Below, one piece after another: positions 37,545 to 41,452 of a DNA stretch of 41,452 nt; within the stretch, counting starts at the first letter, position 1, and each line of letters opens with the position of its first letter. The stretch spans positions 1 to 41,452 of the forward strand of contig JAMDAA010000036.1 of the NCBI GenBank assembly GCA_023484045.1, written 5' to 3'. The stretch is from Patescibacteria group bacterium (GTDB taxonomy: Bacteria; Patescibacteriota; Microgenomatia; Levybacterales; UBA12049). The notes beneath the pieces are model-generated. The model was not told the DNA's origin. It ran no database searches and saw nothing but the letters and a program-made list of their open reading frames with translations. The translations under genes and the position numbers were made by a program.

Positions 37545-37970
37545 TTATCTTATTAAATTACTTGCTTGTATACCGAATAATTGATGCCAGTAATTAAAAG
37601 TTAAAATTTGATAAATATCTCTTTTTTTCATTAGAACTACATTTAATGCTTCTCTAAAATTAATATCTTTTTCCTTATTCGCTTTTAAAATTCTTAATGC
37701 CGAGACGAAATCTGTCTTTTGAGGGAATATGATTTCTATTTCTGAAATAAGAATTATGTCTAAAAATTCTAGAGCTAAAGAATTACTTGCTTCGCGGGCA
37801 AGTGTATAATAGGCCTCTGTTATATTATGAGAGCTCGTAGAAACCTGATATTCTAATCTTCCCAAAGTATCAAAAGCCCTTATTGTTTTTTGATGATTAG
37901 GATCGGCCCTGTCGATAAAAGAATATAAAACCGTAGAATCGATAAAAATTTTACTTGACTGAATAGACAT
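37545..37970 (-). CDS. PIN-domain protein (VapC-like toxin candidate)
   Basis: KIFIDSTVLYSFIDRADPNHQKTIRAFD, ITEAYYTLAR, DINFREALNVVLMKKRDIYQILTFN. Confidence 0.75.
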   Translation of the reverse strand: MSIQSSKIFIDSTVLYSFIDRADPNHQKTIRAFDTLGRLEYQVSTSSHNITEAYYTLAREASNSLALEFLDIILISEIEIIFPQKTDFVSALRILKANKEKDINFREALNVVLMKKRDIYQILTFNYWHQLFGIQASNLIR

Positions 37971-37974
37971 AATT

Positions 37975-38247
37975 TTATGATTTATTCATACTTAATCCTC
38001 TTGCCCTTAGTCTAAAAAACGGATCGGAGAGCGAAAACGGCTTTTTCTTTTTTGTTTTTAAGCCTGGGTTTTTCTGGACATTTGGAGTAAAACCTTCGAT
38101 AAAACTTCTTAAATCACTGGCGGATATTCTTATATTCCCACCAGCCCTAAAGGCGTTTAATTTTTCTTCCCTAATATATCTTCTAATCGTTAAGGGGTGT
38201 ACTTTTAGTATTAATGCAACTTGAGAAACACTGTAATACTCATCCAT
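37975..38247 (-). CDS. Excisionase/MerR-type HTH protein (antitoxin candidate)
   Basis: YYSVSQVALILKVHPLTIRRYIREEKLNAFRAGGNIRISASDLRSFIEG; 4 bp from the PIN gene. Confidence 0.82.
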   Translation of the reverse strand: MDEYYSVSQVALILKVHPLTIRRYIREEKLNAFRAGGNIRISASDLRSFIEGFTPNVQKNPGLKTKKKKPFSLSDPFFRLRARGLSMNKS

Positions 38248-38335
38248 AAAAGACTATGCAATTATATGTAATAATATACAATATTATATAAACTTTGTCA
38301 AGATTTGACTCTTTTATAGTATAAACCTCAAACTA

Positions 38336-38367
38336 TACCTATGCATAGATTAATCTATGCATAGGTA
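38336..38367. promoter_or_regulatory. Perfect 32-bp palindrome, candidate operator/hairpin
   Basis: tacctatgcatagattaatctatgcataggta equals its own reverse complement; ATG at 38372. Confidence 0.85.
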
Positions 38368-38371
38368 ATAT

Positions 38372-41300
38372 ATGTCTAAAAGTCTGCCCATAAACGAAAA
38401 TAGAAAATTAGTAGTTATTAGCGAAGCAGCAAAAATTCTAGGAGTGTCGATCGATACCATAAGACGATGGGATAAGACTGGGATTTTGCATTCAACCCGG
38501 CCAAACGGAAAAAACCGTTATTTTTCCGTAGAGGAACTAGAAGAAATTAAATTTTCACAAAGCTTGCCGATTTCGGAAGCATCCAAAAGACTCGGAATTT
38601 CCGAAACTACCTTAAGAAGACTTGATACAAAAGGAATTTTAAAGGCAAAAAGGAATAAAAATAAAGAGAGGGTTTATGATAGGGAAGCCCTGGATAAATT
38701 TCTTAATTCTGACTATTTTCTCCGTAAAAAGGAAATCGAGGATGAAATTCTTAAACCATTAGTTTCACTTCCGGAAAACAAGAAAAAAGAATCAAGATTT
38801 CAGACAAGACAAAAGATAATCGGTGCGTTAGTCCAAGACAACACCGAAAAGATAATCCATTTGTGGAATTTTAGAAAAGCATTTCTTTTAAGCACGTTAT
38901 TGCCAATCACCATTTTCATTTTTTTAGTCGCGATTATCACGATTTTATTTTTGCTCTTCCCTTTGCAAACGGCAAAATGGTTTGGGTATAGGAAGCCCGA
39001 AAATTTGATTAGTTATGTAAATTCAATAGATAGAGGTCAAGTTTTAGGAGCTCAAACCTCACAAGGGAATGAGATTACAGGACAAGTATTGGGAGTAATG
39101 CTTAGGCCTGTAAGCGCGGTGTCGTTGGAAGTTGTTAAAGTAGTTAATAAAAATACGTATGATGAGATTACGGCAGAGCAAAAGATAAAAAACGTAAATG
39201 ATATTTTAAAGATAAATTCTAATGGAGAGATTGTGGTCGAAAAACAGCTAATGCTTCCAGACAGTTCTTATCTAAAGATTCCCGATCAGAAAGTGGTAGT
39301 AAATTTAAATTCAGAACTTGTTGACGGTAAAAAACCCGGAAGCGGAGAAGGAGATTTAACTGTTTGGGGAGTCGGAGGATCGATTCCTGGACTTATTATT
39401 AATTCATCAGATCTCGTGGACGGAGCGGTGACAACGGAAAAATTAGCTGCGAACGCTGTAACTACAGGAAAAATCGCCGACGGAGCGATTACATCTGCAA
39501 AATTTGTTTCTGGTTTAACTTTTACTCCGAGTGATAATTCCGTAACGAGCGCCAAGATAGTTGACGGGACAATAGTTGATATAGACATATCTTCTTCGGC
39601 GTCGATCAGTGATTCCAAACTTGCGCAAATTACATCTTCTAATAAAGTTGCCGGTAGCGCAATTCAACTTTCTTCAACAGGCGGTTTAGTCAATAATTCG
39701 GGATTGTCGTTAAAAACAACATGCACTACTAGTCAGGTTTTAGTTTGGGACGGTAGTACTTGGGCTTGCGGTACAGGCGGAGGATCAGGAACGATAACAG
39801 CAGTTGTTGCCGGATCGGGATTAACGGGGGGCGGGACATCCGGTTCGGTTACATTAGCGGTATCGGGATTAACGGTTTCCCATTTTGCATCAGCCAATAT
39901 TTCTCAATGGACAAACAATTCGGAATATCTTACTTTATTAACGTTTCCGTATAACTCGACAAATCTTACGATTAATGGTTCAAATAAACTAGATACAATT
40001 CAGGGAATTTCAACAGCCGCTACGCCAACCTTTGCCGGATTGTACGTAACGGGTAATATGGGTATCGGGACAACGACTCCTTTTTCTCCTCTTCATATTT
40101 CCGGAGGAAACACGGGAGGAAGATCGGTTGCGATTTTTGACCAGACAGGTGCGTCGAGTAACGACATACTCTCCGCCTCAGCTTCCGGAGCGACAAAGAT
40201 GACTCTTAACAATGGTGGGGATTTAACACTCTCCGGTAATGTATCAATCGCAACGGGTAAAACATACTCCATTAGCGGTTCCACGAGCCAGACTTATGCC
40301 TCTGCTGTCTGTGTCACAACAACAGGAGGAATTGTAACGGGAACAGGAGCGTGTACCGGGGGTAGTACTACAGATTACTGGACTCTTGCAAACGGTACTC
40401 TCTATCCTGTCAATACTACTCTCGATGTCTTAATCGGTGGAACTGCAACGAGTGGCGCTAATTTTGCAAAATTTGCATTCACCGGAGTTAACGGGAGTAA
40501 TACTCCGACAGCTTCCATATCGGCGGGAACTGCAGGAGGAGTTTACCTAACATCAACAGGAATACTAGCCACAACAGCGAGACAAACATTAACGCTCGGA
40601 GATTCGACGACGACTGGGAATGTAATATTTAATCAAGCGGGAAATGTTGGTATCGGGACAACAAGCCCAAGAAGTAATCTTCATATATCAGACAGTGGAC
40701 AATACAAGCCCAATTTAATGATTGAAGGGACATATAACGGATCTGCAAGTGACGCAAATTTATATATTAAAAGGACAAAAAATAATGCTGTTCTCTCGAA
40801 CTGGGATACAATCGGATATGTTAGATTCACCTCTATTAATTCTACTCCTACCCAAACAGACTATGCCCGCATAAATGGACAGGTTGGTTCTTCGACTGCT
40901 GGATCGGAAAGAGGTTCTTTAAACTTTGAAGTCATGGATAATGGAAGCATTATAACCTTTTTAAGGTTCAACGGCTATGATACTGTTGTCAACGACAATA
41001 AAAATAATATTGATTTTTACGTTAGAGGACAAGTTGATTCTAATTTGCTCTTTGCGGATGCAAGTTTAAACAGTATCGGTGTTGGGACTGGATCTCCCCT
41101 CTCTCTTCTCCATGTATCAGGAGGAAATATTGGAGGTAGGGCTTTGGCGATATTTGATCAGAGAGGAGCAACAGCAAATGATATCTTAACAGCCTCAGCT
41201 TCCGGAGCAACAAAATTAACTCTTGGTAATGCAGGAGATTTAACTGTAACTGGGAATGTAGCGGCAGGAACAGGAAAAGCGTTTTATGTCGGATCAACCC

Positions 41301-41452
41301 AAGGCCAAACCTACGGATCAGCTGTGTGTGTAACCACAACCGGCGGAATAGTTACGGGAACTGCGGCCTGCCCAGGAGGAACAGGGGGAAGTAATTGGAC
41401 TCTGGAAAACGGAACACTGCATCCGAATAACGCCACTCTCGATGTCTTAATC
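38372..41452 (+). CDS. Giant transmembrane protein: two MerR-like HTH domains, TM helix, tail-fibre-like surface repeats (truncated by window end)
   Basis: Codon-by-codon translation open for 1027 codons. HTH1 VISEAAKILGVSIDTIRRWDKTGIL; HTH2 LPISEASKRLGISETTLRRLDTKGIL; TM AFLLSTLLPITIFIFLVAIITILFLLF; repeats LVDGAVTTEKLAANAVTTGKIADGAIT and GIGTTTPFSPLHISGG. Absent from ORF track because no stop falls in the window. Confidence 0.9.
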   Translation, partial: MSKSLPINENRKLVVISEAAKILGVSIDTIRRWDKTGILHSTRPNGKNRYFSVEELEEIKFSQSLPISEASKRLGISETTLRRLDTKGILKAKRNKNKERVYDREALDKFLNSDYFLRKKEIEDEILKPLVSLPENKKKESRFQTRQKIIGALVQDNTEKIIHLWNFRKAFLLSTLLPITIFIFLVAIITILFLLFPLQTAKWFGYRKPENLISYVNSIDRGQVLGAQTSQGNEITGQVLGVMLRPVSAVSLEVVKVVNKNTYDEITAEQKIKNVNDILKINSNGEIVVEKQLMLPDSSYLKIPDQKVVVNLNSELVDGKKPGSGEGDLTVWGVGGSIPGLIINSSDLVDGAVTTEKLAANAVTTGKIADGAITSAKFVSGLTFTPSDNSVTSAKIVDGTIVDIDISSSASISDSKLAQITSSNKVAGSAIQLSSTGGLVNNSGLSLKTTCTTSQVLVWDGSTWACGTGGGSGTITAVVAGSGLTGGGTSGSVTLAVSGLTVSHFASANISQWTNNSEYLTLLTFPYNSTNLTINGSNKLDTIQGISTAATPTFAGLYVTGNMGIGTTTPFSPLHISGGNTGGRSVAIFDQTGASSNDILSASASGATKMTLNNGGDLTLSGNVSIATGKTYSISGSTSQTYASAVCVTTTGGIVTGTGACTGGSTTDYWTLANGTLYPVNTTLDVLIGGTATSGANFAKFAFTGVNGSNTPTASISAGTAGGVYLTSTGILATTARQTLTLGDSTTTGNVIFNQAGNVGIGTTSPRSNLHISDSGQYKPNLMIEGTYNGSASDANLYIKRTKNNAVLSNWDTIGYVRFTSINSTPTQTDYARINGQVGSSTAGSERGSLNFEVMDNGSIITFLRFNGYDTVVNDNKNNIDFYVRGQVDSNLLFADASLNSIGVGTGSPLSLLHVSGGNIGGRALAIFDQRGATANDILTASASGATKLTLGNAGDLTVTGNVAAGTGKAFYVGSTQGQTYGSAVCVTTTGGIVTGTAACPGGTGGSNWTLENGTLHPNNATLDVLI

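Follow-up and report, generated by a model that had tools for sequence, protein, structure and literature searches.

A predicted giant surface fibre of a Patescibacteria group bacterium carries tandem MerR-type HTH domains and probably regulates its own gene from the membrane

CPR bacteria possess very few regulators, and the question of how they manage their attachment to a host with these is raised here by a gene at the 3' end of a contig. Its product begins with two DNA-binding domains and continues, behind a single transmembrane helix (TM), as a predicted giant surface protein: which DNA is recognized by these domains, and what could be the consequence? The window, i.e. the whole stretch of 41,452 nucleotides that was analysed, is the entire contig C10 of the 0.9-Mb genome G000, which consists of 38 contigs. 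We consider it probable (roughly 70%) that the encoded protein is a membrane-anchored giant fibre regulating its own gene, with DNA binding, repression and topology deduced from sequence features.

The reading frame begins with ATG and runs off the 3' end of the contig without a stop codon (Table 1), and it is indeed single and uninterrupted over at least 1027 codons, as had been stated in the original prediction. A frameshift or an assembly join between the HTH and the repeat parts, which would have spoken against this protein, can be ruled out, since the architecture is found unbroken in many independent genomes, among them a genome that consists of one contig of 1.1 Mb. In the single-contig genome G095 such relatives have frames of 2826 and 2193 codons, and a frame in G096 reaches 4721 codons. 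The proposed search for this architecture in CPR showed that the HTH-HTH-TM-repeat frame recurs in dozens of relatives: the N-terminal query was matched in 34 of 100 related genomes, a strong HTH-HTH-TM match was present in 20 of the 384 genomes that covered the class, and further family members were found in records from WWE3, Saccharibacteria and Andersenbacteria.

A comparison of contig ends revealed that the last 127 bp of C10 and of contig C23 are identical, while the sequences diverge before that. This is the picture of two contigs meeting at one junction (k-mer) of the assembly graph, and the cut in the window gene is thus a repeat effect. Contig C35 (2944 codons) is a candidate continuation of the gene, but according to the assembly it could follow either C10 or C23. 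The C35 fragment has no Pfam match; the C-terminus of the window protein itself is lost, and some relatives possess a Peptidase_S74 domain near theirs.

The two HTH domains were confirmed by matches of the window protein to MerR/HTH_17 families in Pfam (PF00376, E-value 5.5e-20, two stretches; PF13411, 1.8e-19; PF12728, 2.7e-16). Likewise, there is one TM, which is now placed somewhat more narrowly than the 38879-38965 given before. Both HTHs are modelled with a pLDDT of 85-90, and one helix runs from residue 135 to residue 195 through the membrane. In a fold search, the model comes closest to DNA-bound structures of MerR regulators and of BldC, the latter (6ama/6amk, rmsd 1.3-1.5) with the same wHTH fold; the E-values for the model as a whole reach only about 0.001, since the long helix makes up most of it. 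When 12 N-termini are aligned, invariant columns (20 in total) occur only within the two HTHs, including T29, R31, R32 and W33 of the first and T80, L81, R82 and R83 of the second recognition helix, whereas the linker and the ectodomain drift.

Behind the TM, both predicted repeat modules, VTTEKLAANAVTTGKIADGAIT and GIGTTTP-LHISGG, are present. The Pfam scan found no domain in the ectodomain of the window protein, and its designation as tail-fibre-like therefore rests on the full-length relatives, whose ectodomains contain Kelch domains, Peptidase_S74 in some cases and Laminin_G_3 in one case. The only cysteines of the window protein form three pairs with a distance of 14-15 residues (451/466, 647/661 and 986/1000). 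All of them are located past the TM, which would suit an oxidising environment outside the cell. The charges around the TM are not decisive for topology on their own; the N-terminus is predicted to be cytoplasmic and the fibre outside.

Table 1 Features of the window gene and its upstream region (positions in the window)
Feature	Position	Strand	Basis or remark
Putative promoter TTGTCA-19-TATAAA, upstream of the operator	38295-38325	+	Consensus match only
Perfect 32-bp palindrome TACCTATGCATAGATTAATCTATGCATAGGTA, candidate operator	38336-38367		Right half contains SD-like AGG
Putative giant surface protein (HTH-HTH-TM), N-terminal 1027 codons	38372-41452	+	3' end lost at contig end
HTH 1, residues 13-62, recognition helix SIDTIRRW	38408-38557	+	Pfam, alignment, model
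HTH 2, residues 63-112, recognition helix SETTLRRL	38558-38707	+	Pfam, alignment, model
Predicted cytoplasmic linker, long helix into the membrane (model residues 135-195)	38708-38896	+	Model
Single transmembrane helix, residues 176-194	38897-38953	+	Hydropathy peak, model
Predicted extracytoplasmic region, VTTEKLA..GKIADGAIT and GIGTT-P repeats	38954-41452	+	Sequence reading
127-bp stretch with which contig C23 ends as well	41326-41452	+	Second giant of G000 also breaks off there

The candidate operator, whose half-site is CCTATGCA, ends 4 bp short of the ATG. Related palindromes with a consensus near ACCTATGCATTGGTTAACCAATGCATAGGT occur at the same position in relatives, and the combined shuffle p-value is 1.8e-12, in a statistic that ignores relatedness. 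In most cases with an assignable TTGACA/-10 pair the site is located downstream of it, these promoters being guesses from the consensus. Upstream of this region, a divergent gene pair on the reverse strand (37545-38247) encodes a 90-aa excisionase-type HTH protein (HTH_17, 4.2e-12) and a PIN-domain protein, likely a toxin-antitoxin module, and an AT-rich near-palindrome at 38275-38290 belongs to this pair.

The kind of site follows the kind of HTH. We counted motifs within 150 bp upstream, allowing one mismatch at most, for classes defined by recognition helix and TM. The half-site CCTATGCA is present upstream of 35 of the 44 genes for membrane proteins with an S[IV]DT helix and of 31 of the 33 genes for S[IV]DT proteins without TM, compared to none of the 14 membrane proteins with an STKT helix and 10 of 211 controls. 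The motif ACTTGGACA behaves the other way round: it precedes 12 of the 14 STKT genes, none of the S[IV]DT genes with (0/44) or without TM (0/33), and 16 of 211 controls. The STKT relatives lack the CCTATGCA palindrome and have instead tandem ACTTGGACA/ACTTAGACA direct repeats about 10 bp apart. No correction for relatedness enters these counts, and the counted sequences include those in which the motif had been noticed; in genomes added afterwards, the site holds in 11 of 13. Start codons were set to the last Met before the HTH, so that distances may shift, and a wrong choice of the start is perhaps part of the cause why nine of the 44 S[IV]DT membrane genes are without site.

The S[IV]DT set without TM consists of unrelated proteins, namely soluble CPR regulators of about 240 residues and C5-methyltransferases. 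Since these are otherwise unrelated, the HTH is the common factor behind the half-site, and a match between HTH and site is the simplest reading. We infer that the upstream site is recognized by the matching type of HTH, binding itself being a prediction. The soluble proteins that share the recognition helix (L213, L219, L194 and similar; L187, L200, L216) have the half-site upstream in most cases, often as direct repeats 21 bp apart. In two further cases, L040 and L043, another HTH type goes along with TGTTACA-N4-TGTAACA-like palindromes before the start codon.

Genome-wide, the bipartite pattern CCTATGCA-N6..22-TGCATAGG yields one match in G000, one in G057 and two in G045, all of them before HTH-TM genes, and the reversed control pattern none in these three genomes. 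For the site with N12 spacing, the genome scan returned nothing else within two mismatches. A regulon was searched for with up to three mismatches and set aside, since only three-mismatch sites at chance level appeared. The tandem ACTTRGACA was matched nine times in 16 genomes, each time before the HTH-TM gene of the respective genome, whereas its reversed control gave no match.

The second giant of G000 extends this picture to another DNA-binding fold. It is encoded on C23 (L079, 4994-7342) and has two Phage_int_SAM domains (PF02899, E-value 2.6e-16, two stretches), the core-binding type of integrases, a TM and the same repeats as in the window protein; a recombinase catalytic domain was not found in it. 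Relatives of the SAM type are present in 48 of 100 genomes. Out of 20 genomes that were scanned for their upstream tandem element TATAATNNGTATAATNTYR, 18 contain it, each of them once, and the reversed control scan gave no match. In all 18 it precedes the SAM-type match by approximately 20-710 bp, in two-thirds within 110 bp, with opposite orientation in one genome (G030). A dif-like site was set aside for this type, because the element is a direct and not an inverted repeat. Two unrelated DNA-binding folds thus appear to be joined to one kind of fibre, and each fold has a predicted site of its own.

In our preferred reading, the inner membrane would anchor the giant surface fibre with its N-terminus in the cytoplasm, where the tandem MerR-type HTHs would bind the CCTATGCA palindrome between their own promoter and start codon. 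The position of the site downstream of the TTGACA/-10 pair, with the right half over the SD-like AGG, suggests that the bound HTHs most likely act as repressors that obstruct early transcription and/or the start region. Further synthesis would then be limited by the amount of fibre that the membrane contains, and a single site before the own gene makes it most likely that the protein limits its own production. As its own gene would be transcribed, translated and inserted at the membrane, it might come within easy reach of the membrane-bound regulator; such a transertion, for which there is evidence from other systems (PMC9977878), could ease the finding of the site. CadC exemplifies a membrane-bound regulator that is able to find its DNA site (PMC7888679, PMC6320335).

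The original prediction had suggested a contact-sensing one-component regulator; in this case, host contact at the tip of the fibre would be transmitted through the TM to the HTHs and switch the own or other genes. The DNA-binding domain, TM and fibre in one chain, the model helix that is continuous from the cytoplasm through the membrane, the lectin-like Laminin_G_3 in one relative and the operation of transmembrane transcription regulators (TTRs) such as CadC from the membrane (PMC10269533, PMC6320335) are all in line with this idea. However, the genome-wide scans reveal only the site of the own gene and no regulon, so that we regard it as rather unlikely and prefer autoregulation to a sensor with a regulon. 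The proposed tie between surface and promoter appears upheld as far as the single chain, the conserved HTHs and the matching site are concerned, whereas target genes elsewhere were not borne out. A contact signal that acts on the own gene only is compatible with autoregulation. It is also conceivable, though very unlikely, that the HTHs merely hold one locus of the chromosome at the membrane under the fibre and do not control transcription. One site per genome and the membrane anchoring would suit such a tether, as would the MerR-like architectural protein RacA among the fold-search matches, but the site of each giant type lies directly before its own gene and mostly downstream of the promoter, which is a regulatory position. 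RacA resembles the window protein in the use of a MerR-like HTH in a membrane- or pole-associated role; it has many sites near the origin, anchors the origin region and possesses neither TM nor fibre.

Two other explanations separate the site from the fused HTHs. A soluble regulator might bind the sites and leave the HTHs of the giant as relics or inert anchors, and other CPR genomes indeed encode soluble regulators that share the HTH type and are preceded by the half-site. We give this a very small chance, as invariance in the N-terminal region is confined to the HTHs and the sole other match to the N-terminal query in G000 is a weak frame of 62 aa. Even less probable is a control at the RNA level, with the palindrome as a 5'-UTR hairpin that hides the ribosome-binding site and HTHs that are unrelated to it. 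The window palindrome would fold as RNA with -20.6 kcal/mol and cover the SD-like AGG, but the hairpin is not conserved (-7.9 kcal/mol in L088 and -3.8 kcal/mol in L093), other HTH types have direct repeats, and the motif tracks the HTH type, soluble proteins included.

The proposed autoregulation by a membrane-anchored fibre shares single traits with several known systems. As in TTRs of the ToxR/CadC type (PMC10269533), a DNA-binding domain (predicted to be cytoplasmic), one TM and an extracytoplasmic part are combined in one chain, according to Pfam, hydropathy and the model. The window family differs from them by a fibre ectodomain of about 1000-4700 residues, a target site only at the own gene and a MerR/BldC-like HTH. 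TTRs of the MerR kind, from CPR or fused to an adhesin are not mentioned in the main text of Demey et al. 2023 (PMC10269533). With classical MerR regulators the protein has the N-terminal MerR-type wHTH in common (Pfam, fold search). Their operator, however, lies between -35 and -10 with a spacer of 19-20 bp, whereas the window palindrome is located downstream of the -10 predicted by consensus match, and in place of their C-terminal effector-binding domain, for which there is no Pfam match here, the window protein has the TM and the repeats. BldC (PMC5859096) has the same wHTH fold and binds direct repeats cooperatively, and direct repeats also precede the STKT-type genes. BldC is a soluble protein of 68 residues with a single wHTH, unlike the two HTHs and the palindrome of the window gene.

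The N-terminal region of the methyltransferase M.SsoII regulates its own system (PMC3978073). M.SsoII and M.Ecl18kI (PMC3978073, PMC3695355) resemble the window protein in that an N-terminal DNA-binding region is fused to an otherwise non-regulatory protein for own-system control (predicted in the case of the window protein), but they are soluble enzymes and not membrane-anchored surface fibres. An N-terminal HTH and a dedicated site upstream of the own gene are found here as well, the latter by sequence only. C5-methyltransferases encountered in this study even share the HTH type and half-site of the window. MYRF (PMC3742443, PMC3742440) is likewise a DNA-binding protein bound to the membrane, and it shares the phage tailspike chaperone (S74/ICA) with some relatives. 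In MYRF the ICA precedes the TM (DBD-ICA-TM), whereas the order here is DBD-TM-fibre-S74, and the S74 domain in G095 is far C-terminal of the TM. Self-cleavage of the MYRF type was rejected for the window protein, since no Peptidase_S74 was found in G000.

We found no earlier report on HTH-bearing CPR surface proteins in the open-access papers searched, and a self-regulating surface-to-gene loop is not described in the open-access papers found. The surface fibre and its likely regulator would be one molecule with a short dedicated site. The recurrence of this design with unrelated DNA-binding domains points to selection for the fusion itself. More tentatively, CPR bacteria may repeatedly have wired giant host-facing fibres to their own genes in this way, through MerR-type HTHs of at least two specificities and through tandem integrase core-binding domains, all with dedicated sites, with engagement of the fibre outside altering DNA binding inside; if true, host contact would directly control fibre production without a second protein. 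The pairs of HTH and site (S[IV]DT with CCTATGCA, STKT with ACTTGGACA) could be a first step towards a recognition code for the regulators in uncultured CPR bacteria.

Some relatives show peculiarities of their own. The HTH-HTH-TM protein of L041 (618-2057, reverse strand) has an ectodomain of collagen-like G-x-T repeats and an apparent frameshift at the end. In L035 (contig C6 of G050) an HTH-HTH-TM frame of 380 aa is followed by repeats in another frame, due to a frameshift, an assembly error or a split gene. In several relatives (L048, L049, L051, L039, L080 and others) the HTH-TM giant adjoins ATP synthase genes, a recurring neighbourhood that differs from the one in the window.
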